From positions 1 to 63,939 of the IMG/VR virus record IMGVR_UViG_3300046656_000719: 63,939 bases of DNA, one strand, 5' to 3'. Shown here piece after piece: positions 29,730-47,766 of this stretch. This DNA comes from a virus. Both the position numbers and the translations under genes were made by a program. How positions within the stretch are numbered: position 1 is the first letter of the stretch; each line of letters starts with the position of its first letter. The notes below the pieces were generated by a model, which worked only from the letters and a program-made list of their open reading frames with translations, did no database searches and was not told where the DNA came from.

Positions 29730-29981
29730 CTACGCCATGTGTGCGCCGCGGGTGCGGCGGAAACTGCGGTTGGCCGACGCGGTGCGCACCCGCAGGTTAC
29801 CGCGCCCGGTGCCCCCGCCCTTGACGAGCGGCACCCGGTGATCGACGTCCATGTCATCACCCTTGTGTACGAGACCCTCCTTCATCAGCTGCCGCCGCGC
29901 GCGGTTGCGGGCGACCCGGTTACGAATCTGCTCGGGGCTCGACTCGTAGGCGGCTTCCTTCGCGTAGTTTCGCTGGTACAT
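29730..29981 (-). CDS. HNH endonuclease
   Basis: 83 residues. DVDHRVPLVKGGGTGRGNLR (45-64) is the HNH core (D-H, G-G, N-L) with further N at 70, on a basic N-terminal helix. Small HNH proteins assist packaging with terminase in many phages; here it lies at the end of the late arm. It shares one base with the stop of the giant gene (TGATG). Confidence 0.82.
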   Translation of the reverse strand: MYQRNYAKEAAYESSPEQIRNRVARNRARRQLMKEGLVHKGDDMDVDHRVPLVKGGGTGRGNLRVRTASANRSFRRTRGAHMA

Positions 29982-32900
29982 CAGAGCCGCTCCCGCAACT
30001 CCTTGATCCGCTCCGCTTTGCGCTGACGCAGCGCCTGCATGGTTTCAGCGGCTTCGGCGTAGGGCCGCTTGCCCAAGCGCGAGTCACGGCGCGCGTTGGA
30101 GATTTCGGTGTCGAACGCGCGCTTCGTGCGTTCTATTTCCAACTCGGTGCCCTTGCGCGATTCCTGCTCGTCGATGGCGGTGACGGGCGCGGCGAGGAGG
30201 CGGGTGTAGTGCGCGGCAGTGCTCGGCTCGTGACCCAGCAGGCCGGGCTTCGGCCCCATCAGGCGCTCGCCCGCCCACGTTGGGGTCATCGTGCCGACGG
30301 CCTTGCTGACGCGGTTGGTGAGCTTGGTGAACGCCGCGTCGGTGTCCTTGTCGAGCGGCTTGCCGGTGTAGGGGTCGTAGCCGAAGCCGGTCAGCATCAT
30401 GCTGACTGCGGGGTTGCCCGGCGTCAGCGCCGAGGGCCACGAGTGCCAGCCCATGAAGCCGTTGGGCTGCTCCTTGAATTCAATCGGCGTCGGGCTGAAC
30501 CAGCGCGCCGTGTCGAAATAGAGGTGCTTGCCGCCCCACTTCCCGAGGTAGGTCTCCTTGTAGGCACCGAACCACGTGGTGGAATCCTTCTTCTCCCGCG
30601 CGCGGCGCTTGCGGTCCTCATCGTCGTCTCCGCCCATGGCAGCCGACAGGGCAGTGCTGACCAGCGTGTAGGCTGCGGCAAGAGTGGCCAACTTCCACGG
30701 CTGGTTCTTGGCGATGCTGCCCATGACGCCCGCGAAGGCGTAGGGCCACGACAGGAACGGGAAAATGGTCTGGCGCAGCGCCTTCACCGCGCGTGAGTCG
30801 ATGTCGTAGTCGAGGAACGCCTTCTTGGCGTAGGTGCCCGCCTCGTCGACGCGCTGCTCGTGCGTCCACCCCGGCTCGGTGCGCTGCAGTTCGCCCATCT
30901 TGGAGATGAACGCCGCGAGGCGAAACATGTTGTCGGTCGTGGCGTAAATCTCGCTCATCACCTCGTCGATGCTCTTCCCCTTGCGCTTGGCGTACTGGAC
31001 CGCCTTCTGGGTGATGCTGTTCTGATAGCGCGTAAACTTCGCCAGATCGTTGAGGAAGCCAACGCCGCTTCCGCCCATCTCGGTCTGCTCGGCCATCGCG
31101 TCGTACATCATCTTCTTGATCTCGGTGACGGAGAAGTCCCCGAGGGTGGCACCGGACTTGTGGAACTCCGACATGACATCCAGTTCATCCGGGGAGAGCG
31201 ACCCCGGCGCTATCTTGTAGCGCCCGTAGAGCAGCAGCCCGCGCGTCACGGCGTTGTACGAAATGTTGTTCATGAACGCCAGCGTGAAATTCGACATGAT
31301 GTTCGTCGCGATGGTCGCCGGGTTGTACACCGTCTTCGATTTCTTGAACGCGGTGACGGCGTTGTTGTAGAACTGCCAGTTCAGCATCGGCTCGGCGGCC
31401 ATCGCGTCGTGGATGCGCGACCAGAGCGGCCCCTCGACGATTTTTCCGGCGAGGTCGCCGTAGGCCCGCGACAGCGGCACCTGCACCCAGTTGCCCGGCA
31501 TGCGCATGGCAGCGGTCATGCGCGCACTCTTCGCTTCCTGCGTGCTCGCCTGTATGACGTTCACCTCCAGCTTGTTGCGCGGCAGCCCGCGCGCGTGCAG
31601 GCGCTCGTTCAGGTGCTTCAGGAGCGCCGCGTCGTCGTCGAACACCACGCCCAGCGCCTTGCCTTTCTCGGCCATGTCCTTGGTGAGTTGGCGCGCGGCG
31701 ACCGAGTTGGCCATGAGGGAAACGGTATTCACGTAGGAGTGGGCAATGGCTTCCGCCGCCTTGCGCTCGGACGCCTCGTCTCCCGGCTTCGCTCCGGCGA
31801 GGAGCGCCTTCACGGTGGTGATCGGGCGCATGCGCTTCATCGGCTCGCCTGCCGCCTTGGTGCCCTTCTGGTCGGGTCCAATGTCGATGTACGGAGTGGT
31901 GAGATCCGGTGACTCCGAGGACGCCGACAGGTTGTCCTCGTGGATCATCTTCTGCAATTCCGGCTTGCCGTTGACGCCGGTTTTCCACACCGGGTAGTAC
32001 TTGCCGGTGCGCCGCGTCATGCTGGTCTCGATGATGGCCTGCACCACCGACAGCGGTTTGGCGGCGATCACCTTCTCGCCCTGTATGCCGAAGCCGGTCG
32101 AGAGCACCATGTCCGCCTGCACCGCCTGCGTCAGGCGCTCGGAGGGCAGCAGCCCGTCGAACTGGGCGCGCACCGCCGGAGAGGACTTCTGCAGCGCGTC
32201 CTCCAGCGCGTCCCGGGCGTCCTTGACCCACCGCTTGATGTAGGGCTCCAGCTTGCTCGGCTGCGCCGGGTCATCCATGTAGTCGAACGCTTCCATGATC
32301 TTCGCGGGCGGGGCGTCTGCGAGCCAGCGCCCGAACTCGTTCGCCACCGTGGTGGGGCCGTGGCGCTGCTTCTTGAAGGTCTGGACCAGCCGCTCCAGCG
32401 CGGGCGAGACGTTGAACGGCGCGTAGACGAGCCCGAGCTTGGAGGCAAGGTAGGGGCTGCGCGTCTGGATCTCGCGCTTGAACGCCCGGCCCATCTCGTC
32501 GATGGCGTTCATCAGCGTCGGGTTGGTCTTGCTGTAGAGGGGCCCCAGCGCCATGCGGAAGATGTCTTCCAGCCACGGCTTGGTGGGCGCGGTGGCGGTA
32601 TAGTCCTGATCGCGCTTGTTTATCGCGCCGCCGTTCGAAACGGCGGTCGCGTACATCGGAGGCTCGTTCTCCTGCGCCACCGTCCCGGTGTCGGAGAGCG
32701 CCTCGGCCTGCCCGCCGCGGCCAGCGTTGCGTTTCTCGGCGGCGTTGATGCGGTTCGACTCCTCCAACCGCGTGAAGTCCGGGGCGTCCTTGCGCATCAC
32801 GCCCAGTAGCTCGTTGTTGGCCATAAGCGCCGCGTCCAGCCACGAGGGCGCAACCCCGACCCGGCCCAACAGCGTGGTCGTGATCCAGTTCTTGAAGCGA

Positions 32901-35900
32901 TCCCACAGCGTGGTGCCCTTGTACTCGATGGAAGCCAAGTACTCCTGCAGTGCCGGGTCGGTCAGCGCCCACGCGAAGAACTCATCGCGGTCCTCGGTCG
33001 CCCGGAAGGCGTCCTTGAGGCTGCTGCTGATGGTTGGGTCTTGCTCCCAGTTGCTCGGCAGGCTGTCGCGGAACTCGATGAACACCTGCTCGAACTGTTC
33101 CAGCTTACGGGCCGCCGCGGGCTCGGGCGTGCCCATCATCTCGTCGCCCGCGCGCACCACCCCCAACGAAAGCGTGCGATAGCGCGCGGCGACGATGGCG
33201 TGGAGCGCCTCGTGCATCACGACTTCGTGGGAGAGCCCCTGCCTGCCCCCGGCGGTGTAGAGCGTCATCTGCGGCCTGCGGAAGAGGCGCACCTCGCCAT
33301 GCTTGCGCGGGGTCGAGACGTCGTCGATGCGCAGGATGATACCGGAGTCCGGCAGCAGCCCCGAGATCCTGCGGGCGAGCGCGCGTACTTCCTGCGGGCC
33401 GGAGGCGGCGATCATGTCGAGCGCCCGCTTGAGCGCCTCGGCACCGCCCGAGTTGGGGAGCCCGTTGCCGCGCAGCACGTTCTCCACATCGCGGGCGACC
33501 CGGCTCTTCATGATGAACGCGGGCACCGGCTTCGCGCGCCCCAGCACGATGCCCGGCTGCACCATGCGGCGCGCGGGCTGCTGCGCCAGCGCAGCCGCGA
33601 TGCCCATCAACGCGCGGGAGCCCGGGGGCTCCAGATCCGCCTCGGTGATGGGCTTCCCATCCGAGGTGGTCTCCGCGTAGAGCGGCGGCTCGGTCAGGTC
33701 TTCTTCGGCTCCGGCTTCACGGTTTTCACCTGCCCTTTCGCCTCCTCGATTGCGTCCTGTATCAGCGCGAGATCCTTCGGCGGCGCTTTGAACTGGCGCG
33801 CGAACTGCAGGCTCGTTCCCAACCAGATCAGCTGCTTGTGCGGGTCCGGCACGCTCTTCGCGAGCGCGGCCAGATACTCGTTCTTGGGCATTGGGTCGCT
33901 CCGTTCTCTGCCCCTCGCCCTTCAGCGAGCGCCCGAAGGGACGCACGCGGTCAGGATTTTCGAGGAGCGTATTGAAGTGGTCGAATATGTCACCGTTCTC
34001 ACCGAGCACATCGGTGAGCGCCTGCGTCCAGCCCGTTATCGCTTGCGGGTCCGTGGTGGCGATTTTGACGAACAACTGCTGCATCTTGGGGATGAAGTCG
34101 TTCGTGCTGTGATTGGGCGCATTCAGGTGCGTCGCCTCGTGCACGAGCGTGGAGATCATGCCCTCGGCTACGTCGTAGGGGTTCGACAGGTCGCCAAACT
34201 GCGGGTGCGCCGCCATCGGGTTCAGCATCATCGACTGGAACGGCACGTAGGAGAACATGCCGAACGTGGTCGAATTCGGGCTGTAGCTCAGCATGAGGCC
34301 CGTGGGCACATCCTGCAGGTCTTCGAAGGTGGGAATTTTATCGACGAGGAAGCTGCGCACCTGCTGCATCACCCCGCCAACATCGCGCAGGTATTTGCCG
34401 AACCGGTCGCCGAACTTCGCGGTGCCGTACTCGGTGGGCGACACCCACTCGCCCGCATCGTCTTGAACCTGCATCGACTCGTGGATCAGGATCTTGTCCG
34501 GGTCGAGGTTTTTCTGGTCGATCTTGAACTCCGACAGATCGGCGGGCTTGAACGCCACCATCTGCGCCTTGGTCAACTCGGGGATAACCTTGCCCGCGAC
34601 GTAGAGCTTGCCGTCGCGCACCTCGACCTTGGCCCCCTTGGGTATGTCGAGCCCCTGCGACTTCTGCTGCGTGGTGGGCGGGGGCGTCAGGCGCTGCTCT
34701 TCGGTGATGGTGCCCGCGGCATCCACGCTCTTCAGGTGACCGTAGCCTTCGAGGTCTTCGAGCAGCGTCTCGTGCCCGTACTTCTGCGCGACGAACTTGA
34801 GGAGCCGCGCCATGTCCTCCTTGGCCGCGGGAGAGAAATCCTGCCGGTTCTGCGCGAGCGGGTAGCCGGGCGACTGCGCCTTCACGGTCGGTTCGAGGTT
34901 GATGTAGACCTCGTAGGGTATGTTCTCGGCATAGAGATCCGTGCCCGGTATCTTGATATCGGCGTCGAACTGCCACACGCCGTTGGAGAGCACGTGCGCC
35001 TCGCGCACACCCGGGCGCTGCTCGCGCGAGATCATGACGCGCGCGGTGCCCCACGCCGAGAAATTCACCGTGGCGATGGGCACGAAATCGTCCGCCGGGA
35101 AGCTCTTCCCTATGGGAACCTCCTCACCAGCGTAGTCCACTCCGATGTTCTCGAAGAGCGGACTGTTGCGAATCGACTTGGGCGGGCGGTAGGTGCCGGG
35201 CATCTCGACGCTGACCATCTTGCCCTCGGAGTTCAGGTGCTTCTCCGGCAGCTTGATGATGACCGTCGTGCCGTTGGGGTCGTCGGTCTTGAACCGCTTG
35301 ATCTGCTCCGCGGGAAGCGATGGGCCCCCCGCCGCGGATTTCGCGATGTCCGCACCCGTGGTATCGACCACGATTTTGACCCCGTCGCGCACCGTCTCCA
35401 GATGCAGCGTTTGCGCAGCCGACATGAACTGCACCTTGGCCACACCGAAGCCACCCGAAGGCCGTGAGGTCTCCTTATGCGTGCCCGCCACTTTGAAGAA
35501 GGCGTCGCGCACCACCTCGAAGGTCATGCCAACGCCATCGTCCCTGACGGTGATGGTGCGGTCCAGATAGTCGATATCGACCTTGATCTTGCCCGATTCG
35601 ATATTGCCCTTCTCGATTGCGCCTTTCATCGCATCGGCAGCATTCTGGAACAACTCCTTCACCGCCACGTGCCCAGCCTTCTCCACGTTGCCGTACATGC
35701 TCTGCTGGAACATCGCCATCATGGCGGCCTGCTCCATGCCCATGCCGAGCGTCAGGTCTTGGCCGCCCGTGTCCTCCACATCCGCGTACTGGGGCGGCTC
35801 GGCGTGCTTCACCTCGGTCAGATCCCGTACGGTCAACCCGCTTTTGCCCTCGCCCTTCAGCACGACGCCGCCGCTGCGGGGCACCCCTGTGACCTCGTAC

Positions 35901-38900
35901 TCCTTCTTCTTGTAGATCACCTTGTCGCCCGCGGCGAAGATCCCGGCCGGGCGGGAAACTACCGGCGCAGCAGGAGCCGCAGCAGCGACAGGAGCAGCAG
36001 GGGGCTTAGCAGCAGCACCACGAACACGACGAGTTGGAGCAGCCGCAGTAGCAGGCGCGACGGGCGCGGGCGCAGGGGCGACGGTGGTGGGTGGCGCATG
36101 GTCCGAGGCTTCGGAGAGGAGATCGGTCGCGTAATTGGCGATCTCGGTGGCGAGCGAGCCCTTGTAGGGCGCGCCCTCGCGCGGGTTGCCCCCGAGCATG
36201 ACATGCAGCACGTTCTTGACGCTGTCCCAGAAGGCGGAAAGCTCGTGGGTGAGCGCCGTCTTCTTCGCCGGGGCCATGTCGGACTCGGCAATCTGGGCGA
36301 GCGCGTCACCGAAGCCGCGGTGTGTCAGCGCGTAGGAGACGAGTTCACCGACTTGATTCGTCGTGACTTTCGTACCGCGGACCCGCTGGCCACCTTCCTT
36401 GCCGCCCTTGGTGTCCTTGATGGCCGCCAGCACGGCAGCGAAGTCGCCCCCGACGTCCTTCGCAGTGTAGGTGCCGTCCAGTAACCGGTCAGCGATCAGG
36501 GCGAGCTTCACCACCGCTTGGTGATCGGGGTGGGTGTTGATGTACCACTGCAGCGCCGCGTGCAGCGCCTCGTGCATGACCGTCTCGGGCGTGGCACCGA
36601 CCTCTTTCCCGCCGACCAGCTTCTTCCCGACCTTGGTCCCGCCGACCGTCTCCGGGTGCGGGAGGTAAATCGTCTGGGTGCCCGCGTGGTAGAAGCCGTG
36701 CACCGTCTTCCCGGTCATGTCCTTGCCGGGGTTCAACTTTTCGCTGATCTCGCGCAACTCGGCCTGCGTGCCGAACTGGACCTTGGGCACCTTGTCGCCC
36801 TGCTTGGAGAACACCCGGTGGAGCGCGCCAGCGAGGAGCTTCTCCATGCCGGTACCGTGCTGCATCGTACGCGCCAAGATCCCTTGAATGCCGTAGTAGG
36901 TCTCGCCCCGGCCGAACAGAGTGTGGCCCTTCACCGCGGCCCGGTAGAGCGGCTCCTCGGTCACCTTGCCCTTCATGCGCCGCCGGGCTTCCAAGGAGGC
37001 GCGCGTGGTGCGCCCGCGAATGACGCCCAGCCGGGGGCTGCCACCGAAGGCACCGTCCTTGAACATGGCCCACGGCACGCTGAAATTCACATCCGCGGAG
37101 GTCTCGCGTTTTGCCTGTTCTTCTTCCTTGGTCAAAGGCTTGAGGTGGATTGCCTTCGCCCGCGCAGCGATGCTGTCGACCGTCTTTTCGCCAACCTCGG
37201 ACTCCAGCTGCAACAGGGTCGCCTGCAGTTCGCTCCGCAGATCGCGCAACTCCCCAGACACCACATCGACCACCGGCTGCCCCGCGTTGGGGTTGCCCGT
37301 CTTGCCGGACTTGAACAACCGGGTGAGCAAGCCCTTCTTGGACGGGCCGAGGTTCTCCTGCAACCCGGGGGGTACTGCGACCCTCTGCTGCTCCCCCTTC
37401 TTCCCCTTCAACTCGGTGTTCTTGACGCCGGGGATAATCGCGCCTTCCTTGGCGGCTATCTCCTTGTACAAATCCTGCACGCGCCGAGTCAGATCCCCGA
37501 TGCTCTGGATGCGCGCGGCCTGCGCGGGCTCCAGCTTCACCCGCTGGCCCTTCTCGTTGCGGATGTCCACCTTGGCACCACGACCCAGCGCAAAGCGCGC
37601 CAGAGCCCGCGTAATGCGCGCAGGCAGCGAGATCCTCCCCTTGGTCTCCCCAACGTGCGAGGCGACCGCTGCGTTCATCGTGGCGTCTTTAACCGCGTTC
37701 TTTTCGGTCTCGGCTTCCTCCGCCACATCCGCAGCCGAGGGGGGCAGGTTGCGGATCTCGCGCGCCCCCTTGGTGGAGACCGGGCTCACGTAGCCGTCCT
37801 TCTCCATGCGGTCGACCAGCGCCTTGGCCGCGGCATAGCCGATCTTCAGCCCCTTCTGGACGTCGCCTATCTTGGCCGTCCCGGCCGCGCGCACGATCTC
37901 GATGGCCTGCTCGTAGGGGTCGGTGGGGGCTACCGTCCCCGGCTGCTGCTCCCCTTGAACCCCTGCACCTTGGGCAGGAACGGCTTGTTTCTTTTCGGGG
38001 GTGACCGCCCCGACTCCGGCTTCAGCCCCGGAAACTTGCCCGGTCCCTTGGCTCCCCGTACGTACGGCTTCACCGCCACGACCTTTGCCATAAGCGTTCT
38101 CCTGTATTGCTGCGTTGAGACGACGTTGAATCTCGATGTGCGAGGTGCGGCTGGTGATCCCGTTCACGAGCGTCTCGTGCTGCTCGGGGGTGATGTGCCC
38201 CTGAGCCGCGGCGGACCCCACTGCGATCAGCGCCTCGTGCTTGTTGCGGAAGATGGAGTCCGTGTCGGCCGCGGCGGCAGCGGGGGCTGCTGGCTCCGCG
38301 GCCCTGCGGCCGGGCTGCGTCTCGACCTGCCGCATCCCGGTACCGGCGAGGATCTGTCGCGACTCCATCCGCGCCGGGTCCGTCTCGACCTGCTGCATCC
38401 CGCTGTCGGCGAGAGCCTGCTCCACCGGGGACAGCCGCGGTGCGACGGGCGTGGGTTGCTCCGACGCGAGGTCCGCAGGGGGTGTCCACACGTTCTGGGC
38501 AGCCGGGGACATGAGCCCGCCCCCGCCGCCGAGGAGAGCCGCTTGCCCCCCGGTGCCCGGCCCCGGTGCTGCAGGCGGCATGCCGGTGGGAGCGGGGCTG
38601 AGCAGCGCCGCGGGCGCGCCGGGCTGCGCCATCGGCGGCTGGCCCGTGGGCAGCGCAGGTGGCCCCATGAAGCTCGGGTCGACCGGCTGCTCCGCCATGT
38701 ATTGATTGACGTCCCGGGTCTCCATCGCACCGAGGAGGTCGGTCGGCCTGCTGGGGTCGATGTAGGGCGCAAGCACAGTGCGCACATCGGCGTGCTTCAG
38801 GCCGCGCCGGGCCGCGTGCGGGATGCCGATAGTGCCGCCCAGCGCGCCCACGACGCCGCCGAACGCGGTCTCCTCTATGTTCGCCCGCGTGGTGGGGTCG

Positions 38901-39682
38901 CGGTAGCCGGACAACTGCTCAACGGGATTCTGCGCGAGTTCCTCCAACCCCTCGCCGCCCACCGTCTTTCCGGCCTCTTTCAACGCCGTGCGCACCGGCG
39001 TCGCACCGAACGCGCGGACCGCGTCGCGCTCGGTCTCGCGCGCGGCCGCTGCTATCTCCCCTTTGGTGGCACCGAGCTTGAGCAGTTTCTGCAGGCCGAA
39101 CCGGTTCTCCATCCAGCCCACGATCCCCGAGCCAGCCCCGGCAACGAGCGGGTCGTACCACTCGTCGCTTCCGCTCTTTCTCTGGTCCTCCCGTATGCCC
39201 GCGTAGGAAGGAAGACCAGCCAGCACCGTCTGTCCCGCCGCCCCCTGCAGCGCCGCCCCGGTGCGCAGCGCGCCCGCCAGCTTCAGCCCGCCCCCAGCAA
39301 GCCCACCCGCGGCCTGCTGACCAACAAAGCTCACCGCAGTGCCGATGCCCAAGCCCAGCGCAGCCGTGGGGTAATTGGCGACGTCGTCCAGCGAGTTGAT
39401 GGCCGAGGGGTTGCGCTCGATCACGCCCTTCGCGTGACGCTGGATGAAGTTGTCCTTCCAGCCCAGATCGGAGGCAATCTCGCCAACCGAAAGCTCGGTC
39501 TGGCCGAGGCCACGCGGGATCGCGTTGCTGAACTCGCGCGAGAACGAGGGGGCCTCGATGCCGAAATAAGTACCGATCTCCTCGGGGTCTATCTTGTTAG
39601 TCTTCGCCAGACTCTCGACGATGGCCCAGTCGCCCGTCCCCTTCGGGAAGAGCGACCGATATTTGTCGAAGGGATCGTTCAC
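29981..39682 (-). CDS. Giant polyvalent virion protein (GHKL ATPase, metallopeptidases)
   Basis: 3233 residues from GTG at 39682. In order: an N-terminal part with hydrophobic, Gly/Ala-rich segments (about 105-145, 270-300) typical of injected internal virion proteins; Pro-rich linkers; an FtsK-gamma-like winged helix (about 586-640); HExxH peptidase motif MHEALHA (about 1036); an SH3-like piece; a GHKL ATPase with ELFQNAADA (about 1341), RDDGVGM (about 1376) and GGFGVAK (about 1406); a second HExxH (VHEATHLN, about 1846); a third (MHEALHAIV, about 2155); and a long C-terminal region ending in FPFLSWPYAF (about 2970) and a charged tail, as in 'large polyvalent protein' modules. It is probably ejected into the host with the DNA to counter defences or reshape host proteins. 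A small out-of-frame gene lies within (33694-33891). Confidence 0.85.
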   Translation of the reverse strand: MNDPFDKYRSLFPKGTGDWAIVESLAKTNKIDPEEIGTYFGIEAPSFSREFSNAIPRGLGQTELSVGEIASDLGWKDNFIQRHAKGVIERNPSAINSLDDVANYPTAALGLGIGTAVSFVGQQAAGGLAGGGLKLAGALRTGAALQGAAGQTVLAGLPSYAGIREDQRKSGSDEWYDPLVAGAGSGIVGWMENRFGLQKLLKLGATKGEIAAAARETERDAVRAFGATPVRTALKEAGKTVGGEGLEELAQNPVEQLSGYRDPTTRANIEETAFGGVVGALGGTIGIPHAARRGLKHADVRTVLAPYIDPSRPTDLLGAMETRDVNQYMAEQPVDPSFMGPPALPTGQPPMAQPGAPAALLSPAPTGMPPAAPGPGTGGQAALLGGGGGLMSPAAQNVWTPPADLASEQPTPVAPRLSPVEQALADSGMQQVETDPARMESRQILAGTGMRQVETQPGRRAAEPAAPAAAAADTDSIFRNKHEALIAVGSAAAQGHITPEQHETLVNGITSRTSHIEIQRRLNAAIQENAYGKGRGGEAVRTGSQGTGQVSGAEAGVGAVTPEKKQAVPAQGAGVQGEQQPGTVAPTDPYEQAIEIVRAAGTAKIGDVQKGLKIGYAAAKALVDRMEKDGYVSPVSTKGAREIRNLPPSAADVAEEAETEKNAVKDATMNAAVASHVGETKGRISLPARITRALARFALGRGAKVDIRNEKGQRVKLEPAQAARIQSIGDLTRRVQDLYKEIAAKEGAIIPGVKNTELKGKKGEQQRVAVPPGLQENLGPSKKGLLTRLFKSGKTGNPNAGQPVVDVVSGELRDLRSELQATLLQLESEVGEKTVDSIAARAKAIHLKPLTKEEEQAKRETSADVNFSVPWAMFKDGAFGGSPRLGVIRGRTTRASLEARRRMKGKVTEEPLYRAAVKGHTLFGRGETYYGIQGILARTMQHGTGMEKLLAGALHRVFSKQGDKVPKVQFGTQAELREISEKLNPGKDMTGKTVHGFYHAGTQTIYLPHPETVGGTKVGKKLVGGKEVGATPETVMHEALHAALQWYINTHPDHQAVVKLALIADRLLDGTYTAKDVGGDFAAVLAAIKDTKGGKEGGQRVRGTKVTTNQVGELVSYALTHRGFGDALAQIAESDMAPAKKTALTHELSAFWDSVKNVLHVMLGGNPREGAPYKGSLATEIANYATDLLSEASDHAPPTTVAPAPAPVAPATAAAPTRRVRGAAAKPPAAPVAAAAPAAPVVSRPAGIFAAGDKVIYKKKEYEVTGVPRSGGVVLKGEGKSGLTVRDLTEVKHAEPPQYADVEDTGGQDLTLGMGMEQAAMMAMFQQSMYGNVEKAGHVAVKELFQNAADAMKGAIEKGNIESGKIKVDIDYLDRTITVRDDGVGMTFEVVRDAFFKVAGTHKETSRPSGGFGVAKVQFMSAAQTLHLETVRDGVKIVVDTTGADIAKSAAGGPSLPAEQIKRFKTDDPNGTTVIIKLPEKHLNSEGKMVSVEMPGTYRPPKSIRNSPLFENIGVDYAGEEVPIGKSFPADDFVPIATVNFSAWGTARVMISREQRPGVREAHVLSNGVWQFDADIKIPGTDLYAENIPYEVYINLEPTVKAQSPGYPLAQNRQDFSPAAKEDMARLLKFVAQKYGHETLLEDLEGYGHLKSVDAAGTITEEQRLTPPPTTQQKSQGLDIPKGAKVEVRDGKLYVAGKVIPELTKAQMVAFKPADLSEFKIDQKNLDPDKILIHESMQVQDDAGEWVSPTEYGTAKFGDRFGKYLRDVGGVMQQVRSFLVDKIPTFEDLQDVPTGLMLSYSPNSTTFGMFSYVPFQSMMLNPMAAHPQFGDLSNPYDVAEGMISTLVHEATHLNAPNHSTNDFIPKMQQLFVKIATTDPQAITGWTQALTDVLGENGDIFDHFNTLLENPDRVRPFGRSLKGEGQRTERPNAQERVSGRAREERAGPAQAADLVGNEPAVRAPVQSAAEGSRADTGRNRGGERAGENREAGAEEDLTEPPLYAETTSDGKPITEADLEPPGSRALMGIAAALAQQPARRMVQPGIVLGRAKPVPAFIMKSRVARDVENVLRGNGLPNSGGAEALKRALDMIAASGPQEVRALARRISGLLPDSGIILRIDDVSTPRKHGEVRLFRRPQMTLYTAGGRQGLSHEVVMHEALHAIVAARYRTLSLGVVRAGDEMMGTPEPAAARKLEQFEQVFIEFRDSLPSNWEQDPTISSSLKDAFRATEDRDEFFAWALTDPALQEYLASIEYKGTTLWDRFKNWITTTLLGRVGVAPSWLDAALMANNELLGVMRKDAPDFTRLEESNRINAAEKRNAGRGGQAEALSDTGTVAQENEPPMYATAVSNGGAINKRDQDYTATAPTKPWLEDIFRMALGPLYSKTNPTLMNAIDEMGRAFKREIQTRSPYLASKLGLVYAPFNVSPALERLVQTFKKQRHGPTTVANEFGRWLADAPPAKIMEAFDYMDDPAQPSKLEPYIKRWVKDARDALEDALQKSSPAVRAQFDGLLPSERLTQAVQADMVLSTGFGIQGEKVIAAKPLSVVQAIIETSMTRRTGKYYPVWKTGVNGKPELQKMIHEDNLSASSESPDLTTPYIDIGPDQKGTKAAGEPMKRMRPITTVKALLAGAKPGDEASERKAAEAIAHSYVNTVSLMANSVAARQLTKDMAEKGKALGVVFDDDAALLKHLNERLHARGLPRNKLEVNVIQASTQEAKSARMTAAMRMPGNWVQVPLSRAYGDLAGKIVEGPLWSRIHDAMAAEPMLNWQFYNNAVTAFKKSKTVYNPATIATNIMSNFTLAFMNNISYNAVTRGLLLYGRYKIAPGSLSPDELDVMSEFHKSGATLGDFSVTEIKKMMYDAMAEQTEMGGSGVGFLNDLAKFTRYQNSITQKAVQYAKRKGKSIDEVMSEIYATTDNMFRLAAFISKMGELQRTEPGWTHEQRVDEAGTYAKKAFLDYDIDSRAVKALRQTIFPFLSWPYAFAGVMGSIAKNQPWKLATLAAAYTLVSTALSAAMGGDDDEDRKRRAREKKDSTTWFGAYKETYLGKWGGKHLYFDTARWFSPTPIEFKEQPNGFMGWHSWPSALTPGNPAVSMMLTGFGYDPYTGKPLDKDTDAAFTKLTNRVSKAVGTMTPTWAGERLMGPKPGLLGHEPSTAAHYTRLLAAPVTAIDEQESRKGTELEIERTKRAFDTEISNARRDSRLGKRPYAEAAETMQALRQRKAERIKELRERL
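33694..33891 (-). CDS. Nested small gene inside the giant gene
   Basis: 65 residues in a different frame of the giant gene, with GGAG seven bases upstream of its ATG. The sequence (LAKSVPDPHKQLIWLGTSLQ, then QFKAPPKDLALIQDAIEEA) reads like a folded helical protein with normal codon choice, whereas the giant frame here (residues about 1931-1996) is a low-quality R/A/G/E-rich stretch. Either a genuine nested gene, or the remains of a gene boundary now fused. Confidence 0.5.
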   Translation of the reverse strand: MPKNEYLAALAKSVPDPHKQLIWLGTSLQFARQFKAPPKDLALIQDAIEEAKGQVKTVKPEPKKT

Positions 39683-44240: not shown

Positions 44241-46024
44241 ATCTGGCGCAGCCCGTCGGGCGTCTCGGCGATCTTCACGTTCTTGATCCGCACCTGCCCG
44301 TTTACCTTGAACGACCACGCATCCGACAGGTAGCCGCTCGGCATGCGAAAGACGCCGGTGTCTTCGAAGAGCGTCTTCGAAAATTTCATGACCCCCTTGG
44401 AATACAGCGTGAAAGTCACCGACTTCTGCGCATCCAGCACATCGGTCAGCTTCGGTGCGTAGCCGTTGATCGTGACGGTGTTGATCCCGCCGAAGCGGCC
44501 GTTGATGGCGCTCACGCCGTTGGCGATCTTCGGCCCCATCGCCAGCACCGCCTGCGCGTAGGCGGCGATCAGCGCGGCAGCGTCCGCGGCGGTGATCTCG
44601 GAGACGAACTCCACGCGCGCCGCGCCGAAATTGCACGGCGTTGCCAGTTCGAACTCTCTCGACAACCACTCGAACGGCAGCCGCGCGCCGTCGGCCGAGT
44701 CGTACTGCTTCACACCCTCGGCGTCGACCACGTAGAGGTAGCCGTTGCGGGGATCGGAGTACAACTCCACGCAGTCGAGCGTGAGGGTGGTCAACGCCGC
44801 CAGCGGCTCCAGCGGCTGGAAACACAGCATCCCCGACTGCGGCGCGCCCACGGCCGTGTAGAGGATGAAAATCTTGTTCTCGGCAATCGCGCACACCATG
44901 GTGTACGGATCGAGCGGAATCCACTCCTCGCGCGTGTAGAAGGGCTGCGTCCACACCCGCGGGCCCGCCGAGCCGACGTAAACGAGGCCCGAGAGCGTGG
45001 CATAGACGACGCCATCGCCCACCGAGATCATCGAGCGTTTGGCGAGACACGGCCAGATGTTGTCGTGGCGCTCCAAGGTGACCGAGGCCGGTTCGACGCC
45101 GTCGCCGATGTAGGGCGCGCCTGTGGTGCCGATCACCATGGTGGTGCCGTAGGCGGCGAGCCCCACAGCGGTCTGGTTCATGCCGCGCTGATATTCAACG
45201 GGCCACGCGTGGAACTGGTAGGGCTCACTCTGGCAGAGCAGGTTACCCAGCAGGCCAGCGAGCGCGCCGTTGGGTAGTGCGATGATGTTGAAGAGCCCCG
45301 CGGGTGGGGGCTCCCACCCGGCGGAGATCAACTCATCACCCGGGATCTGCGAATCCGGAATCGTATCGACGTAGGTAGTGGGAACGTCCTCCGCCACCAG
45401 TTGGAAGGTGGCCTGCGTGCCCACCGAGCGGTAGAGCCGCCGCTTCATGCCGGTGGTGTTGTAGCTCCCCGCGGGAATGGGGGCCGGAAACGCGGACATG
45501 CCCGAGACCGTCCACGTGCCGTCGACCTTGCCGGACACGAGGTCGCTCACCGGTGAGGGGCCGGACTCCTCCCCCCACTGTGAGAAGAAGGTGTAGACGT
45601 AGACCCGCGACACCGTGGCCGCAGCGCCGCCCGCGGCGACGACGACAGGCTTCCCCGTCGGGTTTGGGATGCCGAGCAGGAGGTCGGCCGCAGGCACATC
45701 GAAGTTGGTGAAGTTGGTGATCTTGGGCGGCCCGTCGCCGGTCCACACGTAGCGCGGCTCGACGTCCTCGGTGAGCGGAAGCCGAGCGACGTCCACATCC
45801 ATTGTCCAGCCGCGCCACTTGTCGAGGCTGGCGTGCTCCGCGCGGTAAACCGCTTTCTTGTTCGCCATCGCGGTCGTGATCAAGCCGGGCTCGCGAATCG
45901 GGCGAATATCCCCGGAAAGCAGCCGCACGTTGGCCGCGGTCTGGCCAAAGTTCTCCCCGAGCAGGCGCTCGGCCGTGCGCGGGGAGATTGGGCCGAAGGG
46001 ACCGGCGCGAAGAGTCTGGCCCAT
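44237..46024 (-). CDS. DNA-stabilisation / tail-hub protein (beta-rich)
   Basis: 595 residues, beta-rich with repeated short motifs (for example 'LVYVGSAGPRVWTQPFYTREEW', 'YLYVVDAEGVKQYD'), like podovirus stabilisation proteins (P22 gp10-like) that plug the head after packaging and connect it to the tail. No catalytic motif seen. ATGA overlap with the small helical gene and shared bases with the Hint protein upstream fit a tail module. Confidence 0.7.
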   Translation of the reverse strand: MGQTLRAGPFGPISPRTAERLLGENFGQTAANVRLLSGDIRPIREPGLITTAMANKKAVYRAEHASLDKWRGWTMDVDVARLPLTEDVEPRYVWTGDGPPKITNFTNFDVPAADLLLGIPNPTGKPVVVAAGGAAATVSRVYVYTFFSQWGEESGPSPVSDLVSGKVDGTWTVSGMSAFPAPIPAGSYNTTGMKRRLYRSVGTQATFQLVAEDVPTTYVDTIPDSQIPGDELISAGWEPPPAGLFNIIALPNGALAGLLGNLLCQSEPYQFHAWPVEYQRGMNQTAVGLAAYGTTMVIGTTGAPYIGDGVEPASVTLERHDNIWPCLAKRSMISVGDGVVYATLSGLVYVGSAGPRVWTQPFYTREEWIPLDPYTMVCAIAENKIFILYTAVGAPQSGMLCFQPLEPLAALTTLTLDCVELYSDPRNGYLYVVDAEGVKQYDSADGARLPFEWLSREFELATPCNFGAARVEFVSEITAADAAALIAAYAQAVLAMGPKIANGVSAINGRFGGINTVTINGYAPKLTDVLDAQKSVTFTLYSKGVMKFSKTLFEDTGVFRMPSGYLSDAWSFKVNGQVRIKNVKIAETPDGLRQI

Positions 46025-47766
46025 TACGCGAGCGTCCCTACGGCGTGACCGTCGGCGTAGAACACGTGGCTCCCGGCGAGATGGAGCGCCATCACCTGCT
46101 GATTCTCGGTGACGCGCGTGCCCGCGGAGCGTTTCGTCGCCATGTCGTAGGCAGGATTCGCCGTGCTCACCTCACGCAGCCCGCGAACCGGAATCCACCC
46201 GCCCGATGCGTGGCGAATCAGTGTCCCCGGCACCATGGTGTGCACCGTCTCGCCGTTGGCCACCACGAGGGACACGGTGTCGATCAGACCGCGCTTGCCC
46301 TTGACCGAGCGCCTGCGTCCGTGACTGTTGGCCCAGTACATCGCAGGCACCGGCGCGCCCCACGCTTCCACGCCCCCAACCATGACCGGAAAGAGATGCC
46401 CCGGCGTGCACACCACCGCGCCCTCGTCGGTCGCCACTTCCCACACCGAACGCTCCTGCAGGATGTTCGTCCAGATGCCGAGCACCTCGGCCGGTGCGCC
46501 GTTCCCCCACACCATGTCGCCCACGCGCACATCGCGCAGCCACTTCTTGGAACCGTCCCCCATCGTGATTTCGCTGTCGGGGTGGATGGAGGAGTTGGAG
46601 CCACCGCCGCCCCCGGAGGCCACAGTAACGTCCCCGGTCATGCCATTGACGCTGGTGACCCCGCCGTTGCCCGCGGTGGTGGCGAAATTGGCGGTGTTAG
46701 CAGCGTTCGCAGTGTTGGCCGTATTGGCGCTGTTCGCATAGTTGACACTGAGATTCCCGGGCTGCGTCAGGTACTGATCGTTCGCCGCGCCATCCGTCGC
46801 CCAGATGTAGCCCGGGTTCGTACCACGATTCACGTAGTTCCAACCAGTGATGCCGTTCACCGCATTCGCGTTGCTCGCGCTTGCCGCGTTCCCAGTGCAC
46901 GAAGCCGAGCTTCCCGAGACGCTGATCGGCCACATGTTGCCGAAATACGTGCCCTCAACCTGAACCTCCAGCGTGCCGTTCCAGCCGAGGTAGATGTTCT
47001 CGCCCCGCAGCGAGAAAATCTGCTTGGCATTTGCGACGTTGCCCAGCCCCACCATCGCGGCGGTGACGCCTGAGACGTTGCCTGCGAGCGCGACACCACC
47101 CGCAGTGACGCTGATGCCAAGCGTGGCACCACCATAGATGAACGTCGTCCCCCACCCGCCGTGCCCTATATACAGATTGTTGCCGGTGGCCACCATCGCG
47201 GGCTGCGCTACACCGCCGGGACTGGGAAATGTGATCTGCCCGTTAAGCGGCAGGTTCAGGACGGGGACGTTGATATCGAGATTCCCCGGCCGCCACTGCA
47301 TAATGTTCACGCCACCGACCACCGCGGCCATGACGTTGGCGGCAAGCCGCGCGAGCCCCGTCGCCAACTCGTTCGTCCATGCGATGCCCGGCGCGGCAAG
47401 CGTGCCGTCGGCGAAGCTGATCACCGGGGACGGGATCGTCTTGTTGGTGAGCGTCTGCTTGCCATCGACGGTGGCCACGGTCCCGGCAGTGAGGCGGCAC
47501 TCGACGATGTCGCCCACGATCCACGCCCGCGCGACCGTGCCCTCTTGAGCGCGCACGCAGGTGAACGAGTTGGTGCCGTCACCGTGCGCGGTGATCTTCA
47601 TGATCTCGATGTTGTTCGCCGTATCCTGAAACGTGACGAACGACCAGTCGCCCCCGGCCACCTTCGGGAACGCCGAGCCCACCGCCAGCGTGAAGCTGGT
47701 GTCGAGAGCGGTGATGTTCCCCGCCAGCGTGGAAAAAGCATTGTTCGCGTTCACATAGGCTGGCAT
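46024..47766 (-). CDS. Tail protein with C-terminal Hint (intein-like) domain
   Basis: 580 residues, AGGATAGGA ribosome site. The N-terminal part is a fibre-like protein with a repeat-like segment (FADGTLAAPGIAWTNELATG, about 117-136) shared with the fibre at 49112. After a Gly/Ser linker (about 375-390) comes a Hint domain: SEITMGDGSKKWLRDVRVGD (start), VWEVATDEGAVVCTPGHLFP (near 435-455) and VFYADGHAVGTLA at the very end. The N-terminal splice residue appears as Ser rather than Cys and the closing HN is missing, so this is probably a non-splicing, self-processing or capping form. Confidence 0.75.
   Translation of the reverse strand: MPAYVNANNAFSTLAGNITALDTSFTLAVGSAFPKVAGGDWSFVTFQDTANNIEIMKITAHGDGTNSFTCVRAQEGTVARAWIVGDIVECRLTAGTVATVDGKQTLTNKTIPSPVISFADGTLAAPGIAWTNELATGLARLAANVMAAVVGGVNIMQWRPGNLDINVPVLNLPLNGQITFPSPGGVAQPAMVATGNNLYIGHGGWGTTFIYGGATLGISVTAGGVALAGNVSGVTAAMVGLGNVANAKQIFSLRGENIYLGWNGTLEVQVEGTYFGNMWPISVSGSSASCTGNAASASNANAVNGITGWNYVNRGTNPGYIWATDGAANDQYLTQPGNLSVNYANSANTANTANAANTANFATTAGNGGVTSVNGMTGDVTVASGGGGGSNSSIHPDSEITMGDGSKKWLRDVRVGDMVWGNGAPAEVLGIWTNILQERSVWEVATDEGAVVCTPGHLFPVMVGGVEAWGAPVPAMYWANSHGRRRSVKGKRGLIDTVSLVVANGETVHTMVPGTLIRHASGGWIPVRGLREVSTANPAYDMATKRSAGTRVTENQQVMALHLAGSHVFYADGHAVGTLA

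Follow-up and report, generated by a model that had tools for sequence, protein, structure and literature searches.

Inteins of class 1 that carry Ser at position 1 and work through oxyester chemistry exist and are active (PMC10189870; PMC7664689), and a motif-NX His preceded by Arg or Lys is conserved in, and usual for, these Ser1 class-1 inteins (PMC10189870). In several Cys1 inteins the C1S exchange abolishes activity (PMC10189870). Hedgehog employs the first acyl shift alone (PMC7664689), and cleaved products arise from BIL domains in which the C-terminal set of residues is incomplete (PMC7664689; PMC7765530). The literature on Hint domains and on autoprocessing in phages yielded terminase, helicase and other inteins together with reviews of the Hint fold, and no description of Hint domains ending fibres was found in a search mostly limited to openly accessible literature. 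The self-release of S74 domains is established. Within the literature searched, the Ser1, HN-less Hint domain at a fibre tip described here would be a variant not previously described, of the known Hint/BIL kind.

The window, i.e. the whole stretch of 63,939 nucleotides that was analysed, is an IMG/VR virus record. The earlier note had assigned a tail protein ending in a Hint domain to the open reading frame 46024-47766, and this frame, on the minus strand and coding for 580 aa, was recovered exactly (Table 1). Residues 7-109 of the protein match PHROG tail fiber 8469 (phrog_8469, E 2.4e-20) and phrog_6427 (E 1.7e-20). In tblastn the N-terminal domain is 38-46% identical to fibres of Burkholderia, Agrobacterium and Ochrobactrum phages; it also matches fibres of Pseudomonas and Sinorhizobium podoviruses, and according to the HMM it is present in most of 80 related viral contigs. 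Directly downstream of the fibre gene lies the gene of a phrog_511 (PHROG 511) virion protein, about 30% identical to its counterpart in Lessievirus and relatives, and the gene order is that of the Lessievirus relatives. Both marks of a Lessievirus-like tail fibre, the N-terminal fibre domain and the position upstream of the phrog_511 protein, are found at this locus, and on these two grounds the gene is assigned to the tail fibre of a Lessievirus-like podovirus, an uncultured phage. Residues 167-506 are weakly similar by blastp to the Hint-bearing fibres L149, L163 and L107, over a stretch that is partly of low complexity. A phmmer search of the shaft region against the Hint-bearing fibres gave no match, so descent of the shaft together with the Hint from an ancestor common with L149 is no more than suggested.

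Table 1. Predicted features of the Hint-ended fibre gene, in window positions
Feature	Position	Strand	Basis
Tail fibre gene ending in Hint domain	46024..47766	(-)	580 aa ORF
N-terminal domain common to Lessievirus-like tail fibres, residues 1-110	47437..47766	(-)	tblastn and HMM
Fibre shaft region with SVNYA and VTSVNG motifs, residues 111-384	46615..47436	(-)	sequence
Five-glycine linker, residues 385-389, just N-terminal to the Hint domain	46600..46614	(-)	sequence
Hint domain, residues 393-580, extreme C terminus	46027..46590	(-)	profile, hhalign and structure matches
Ser393 (TCC), position of catalytic Cys1	46588..46590	(-)	alignments; Ser in all three relatives
Block B T-P-G-H, Thr454 to His457	46396..46407	(-)	Thr and His invariant in three Ser1 relatives
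Ala560, position of block F Asp of inteins (lost)	46087..46089	(-)	equivalence assigned by eye, VYDL-type motif
C-terminal V-G-T-L-A-stop, residues 576-580, where inteins and BIL-A have V-H-N	46027..46041	(-)	conserved ending

Other genes of the window were also inspected. A second fibre of the same phage (49112-51433, minus strand) carries a Peptidase_S74 chaperone domain (E 4.5e-11) at its C terminus, and both kinds of C-terminal module are therefore found in one genome. At the place of the giant DarB-like/methylase proteins of the relatives, the window holds an ORF of 3233 residues (29981-39682, minus strand) containing an FtsK gamma domain (E 6.4e-12) and a HATPase domain. A PAPS-reductase-like phage protein (41257-42639, minus strand; phrog_424, E 4.5e-38) is shared with the Lessievirus relatives.

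The last 188 residues of the fibre, from Ser393 to Ala580 at the stop codon, are identified as a Hint domain by profile comparison and structure modelling. This length agrees with the about 190 residues proposed in the earlier note, the start being shifted slightly upstream of the motif given there, to Ser393. Both motifs of that proposal are present, DGSKKWLRDVRVGD at about residues 404-417 and FYADG at 569-573, and Ser393 stands in the context GGGGG-SNS-SIHPDSEITMGDGSKK. Searched alone, the domain matches the Pfam Hint models (Vint, Hom_end_hint) below threshold and intein-bearing terminases in phages with E 0.003 to 0.1, and the best match of the single protein among PDB chains was the gp41-1 intein (phmmer, E 1.1e-3). 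A profile of three Ser1 relatives matched Hint domains (E 1.5e-10 to 6e-5) in 9 genomes of a proteobacterial set of about 754, chosen without regard to the Hint motif, the stretches inspected there being Hint domains of the TAEHPF / YFANGYLVHN kind. With loci picked by the Hint motif the same three-member profile went down to E 7.7e-13, a value subject to selection bias. Comparison with Cys1 tail-fibre Hint domains by hhalign gave a probability of 95.5 and an E value of 1.4e-8.

An AlphaFold2 model of the domain (pLDDT 82.9, pTM 0.80), built on an alignment of 13 sequences comprising the window and Hint relatives, matched BIL2 (6y75, E 1.1e-9), the gp41-1 intein (1.4e-8) and hedgehog (1at0, 8.4e-6) in Foldseek. 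Since this alignment included Hint sequences, a second model was made from the three Ser1 sequences only; it is of low confidence (pLDDT 48) and was used solely to check the Hint match independently of the Cys1 sequences in the alignment, and all of its 15 best PDB matches, with E below 0.001, were Hint folds. A PDB profile search with the Ser1-relative alignment was not counted, spurious matches to repeat proteins (designed Pizza proteins) ranking above and inteins lower. The Hint fold and the block A and B sequence motifs, which characterize the Hint (hedgehog/intein) superfamily, are both found in the domain. The structure prediction suggested earlier as a check is in agreement with the proposal, the first model matching known Hint folds (BIL2, gp41-1 intein, hedgehog), and a Hint fold in a tail protein is upheld by the profile, hhalign and AlphaFold2 matches on one side and by the PHROG matches of the fibre N terminus on the other.

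The splice residues of the domain are changed. In alignments Ser393 occupies position 1, with Ser in all three relatives, as had been supposed for the first residue. The terminal HN is indeed missing: the protein ends in AVGTLA-stop (...FYADGHAVGTLA-stop), with G-T replacing the His-Asn, and stops after D-G-H-A-V-G-T-L-A with no C-extein. The block B Thr-x-x-His is equivalent in the alignment to the TxxH or SxxH of Cys1 Hint domains, and the position of the block F Asp is Ala, Ala and Ser in the three Ser1 relatives. The motif-NX His with its preceding Arg or Lys is absent, the window domain having no His at all between blocks A and B, and the only His invariant in the Ser1 trio are H3 and that of block B. 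Set beside the known classes, Ser393 supplies the Cys1 or Ser1 nucleophile of class 1 inteins, and the C-terminal Asn (His-Asn) and the +1 nucleophile with C-extein of that class are missing. The motif-NX His preceded by Arg or Lys, which marks the Ser1 cysteine-less inteins (PMC10189870), and the conserved C-terminal His-Asn of BIL-A are likewise lacking. The combination found, in which an N-terminal nucleophile goes with the block B Thr-x-x-His and the C-terminal motif of inteins is absent, is that of the BIL-B/hedgehog type, with Ser and not Cys.

With the Asp of block F, the terminal His-Asn and the His of motif NX all missing, splicing and C-terminal cleavage are ruled out for the domain, and N-terminal activity cannot be taken for granted. 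N-terminal acyl-shift chemistry of the hedgehog/BIL-B kind is possible, and the domain would at most cut or hand over the fibre end. The earlier description as "hedgehog- or BIL-like" can be kept in the BIL-B/hedgehog sense, with N-terminal chemistry only, and has to be dropped for BIL-A for want of His-Asn; self-cleavage, capping or crosslinking would be possible functions. That the domain is a splicing intein or a BIL-A domain is hardly conceivable: the Hint fold would suit either, but there is neither a C-extein nor a His-Asn, and both candidates were rejected as contradicted by the sequence residues.

A pattern scan for S/C-x-H-P-[DE]-[ST] gave two true relatives, L179/L182 and L180/L183, which are 50% and 34% identical to the window domain, respectively, and are the only two independent relatives known. 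Scans of viral contigs with a single protein as query (Hint domain or whole protein) found no relatives, the profile scan of genome contigs with the Ser1 relatives gave no match, a C-terminal pattern scan of genome contigs gave no further Ser1 member among the loci examined, and the search of phages and plasmids for Ser1 relatives returned none beyond weak Cys1 matches. The three Ser1 copies differ at roughly half or more of their positions; all start with S-[IL]-H-P-D-S, have T-x-G-H-L-F in mid-domain and end in D-G-[YH]-A-V-[GS]-T-[LI]-A-stop. As the AVGTLA-stop ending is conserved, the window domain is judged complete and not truncated. The fibres of the two relatives share nothing else detectable with the window fibre, and the L182 fibre gene comes next after a lambda-gpJ-like gene, the L183 fibre gene after a DNA-ejection-like gene. 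The same Ser1 Hint module is present on three unrelated fibres. Since the two relatives on unrelated fibres share the Ser1 start and the ending, Ser1 and the absent His-Asn do not reflect the decay of one gene. The sub-threshold Pfam scores and the lost splice residues could be read as signs of a functionless decayed intein or sequence artefact, but this is very improbable: the domain has its full length and the conserved ending of its subfamily, other phages carry two relatives of it, there is no frameshift or stop, and dN/dS lies below 1 (about 0.33-0.45 between pairs of the Ser1 trio by simple counting, a rough value as dS exceeds 1); moreover, at the C terminus of a protein there is no C-extein to splice.

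Ser1 is encoded by TCC, AGC and TCG in the three copies. Serine codons of the TCN and AGY families are two base changes apart, so that Ser1 was either kept across a switch of codon family or regained independently (e.g., from Cys TGC or from Thr codons), and selection for a hydroxyl or thiol at position 1 is the natural reading.

Among the 80 nearest Lessievirus-like viral contigs scanned, none has a Hint domain, and for this reason the Hint module of the window is a local acquisition and not a feature of the group. Sister Lessievirus fibres end in S74 chaperone, collar-like or other modules. Cys1 Hint domains without HN are found at the end of fibres in Achromobacter phages JWF and 2-1 and in several viral contigs (L106, L107, L149, L163). 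BFVD structures that also come close belong to proteins of uncultured Caudovirales with the names "Hint domain containing protein" and "Collagen triple helix repeat".

Several further arrangements were observed on other tail proteins. In the Achromobacter phages JWF and 2-1 (L094:3059-4510, L102:2065-3507) a Cys-Asn repeat, CNCDCNCNCSC, directly precedes Cys1, and a radical SAM gene annotated as a sulfatase-maturating enzyme is located two genes downstream of the Hint-ended fibres. Providencia phage PSTNGR1 encodes a small protein (L258:4551-5504) with the tail-fibre-tip motif ALPSSGPITMAQI at its start and an HN-less Cys1 Hint at its end; it adjoins an S74-ended fibre. In marine phages (L119, L130, L137, L165, L173 and others) the lambda-gpJ-like central tail fibre closes with poly-Gly and then a Cys1 Hint with terminal His-Asn, an arrangement that recurs and of which the literature search gave no description.

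We tentatively propose, giving it a little less than an even chance, that the fibre ends in an exchangeable Hint module belonging to a small Ser1 subfamily, in which an acyl shift and the release of the Hint piece would serve the maturation of the fibre tip. After translation, Ser393, aided by His457, would attack the peptide bond to Ser392 (N-to-O acyl shift), so that an ester would link the fibre to its Hint domain. As Asn, HN and C-extein are all lacking, this ester could be resolved only by hydrolysis or by transfer to another nucleophile. A Hint piece of ~20 kDa would be released from the end of the glycine linker, a maturation step whose outcome would be comparable to that of the self-releasing S74 chaperone domains on sister fibres. 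The window domain retains the N-terminal half of the Hint machinery, and an acyl shift at Ser393, with hydrolysis or transfer as the second step, is the most economical mechanism that we infer. Against it stand the absent motif-NX His, the lost block F Asp and the small number of independent relatives, two only.

Since the motif-NX His is missing and C1S inactivates several Cys1 inteins, a non-catalytic tip domain is nearly as likely as the acyl-shift mechanism and is a serious rival. The Hint domain would then be catalytically silent and act as a structural cap, a folding or trimerising unit or a receptor-binding fibre tip, a substantial minority possibility. Besides the motif-NX His, the loss of the block F Asp and the Ser, unusual at position 1, in place of Cys are in agreement with silence, as are the usual nature of fibre C termini, which are receptor-binding or folding modules, and the swapping of S74, collar-like and other modules at this position in the relatives. 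In contrast, Ser1 and the block B Thr and His do not vary among the three divergent copies, the Ser1 codons come from different Ser families, and a nucleophile exactly at position 1 would be needless in a purely structural role.

It is also conceivable, and on balance unlikely, that the Ser1 ester is used for transfer, coupling the fibre C terminus to an adjacent subunit, to a group on the host surface or to a small molecule, in the way that hedgehog is coupled to cholesterol. The residue set is that of hedgehog-type chemistry (N-terminal nucleophile, block B His, no terminal Asn) and the module is found at the distal end of several unrelated fibres, but no acceptor, no extra region resembling a sterol-binding one and no Ser1 activity are known here. 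Its narrower form, in which a Ser-based, hedgehog-like Hint at the tip of a whole family of phage fibres would pass the activated ester with the fibre C terminus to a neighbour subunit or to the host surface, giving a covalent link at assembly or adsorption, is a shade less likely again.

Several unrelated phage groups have Hint domains at the C terminus of tail proteins that recognise receptors. If active, the Hint domain would give fibre tips a self-processing device in addition to S74, with the Ser1 form as an oxyester-based one that needs no thiol; if inactive, the Hint fold would have been reused as a structural or binding tip.

Among the known systems, the Peptidase_S74 intramolecular chaperone resembles the window Hint as a C-terminal module of phage fibres and differs from it in fold and sequence. 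BIL-B domains, compared here by their description only, are Hint domains with the N-terminal and block B motifs and without the intein C-terminal motif, located in variable, poorly conserved proteins (PMC7765530), as in the window, whereas the window domain has Ser and not Cys at position 1 and is placed at the extreme C terminus of a phage fibre. With the Ser1 (cysteine-less) class-1 inteins it shares the Ser at position 1, the block B His and the Hint fold, but the motif-NX His, the block F Asp, the Asn and the C-extein are missing. The hedgehog C-terminal (Hog) domain has the same Hint fold (1at0) and C-terminal placement and no terminal Asn chemistry, whereas the window domain has Ser for Cys, shows no recognisable sterol-recognition region and belongs to a phage structural protein. 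The Hint domains of the marine gpJ-like proteins (L119, L130 and others) also follow a Gly linker at the C terminus of a host-specificity tail protein, but Cys1 and the final His-Asn (GYIAHNV) are kept there. The Cys1 fibre Hints (JWF, 2-1, L106, L107, L149, L163 and PSTNGR1) share the placement, closing fibre or tip proteins at the C terminus; they have lost the terminal His-Asn, with endings such as NGYLMTAG, GGYVAGAG and NGYLVSS, and are homologous to the window domain according to hhalign (95.5%). These proteins keep Cys1 and, except in PSTNGR1, carry a Cys-Asn repeat before it, whereas the window fibre combines Ser1 with a Gly linker.
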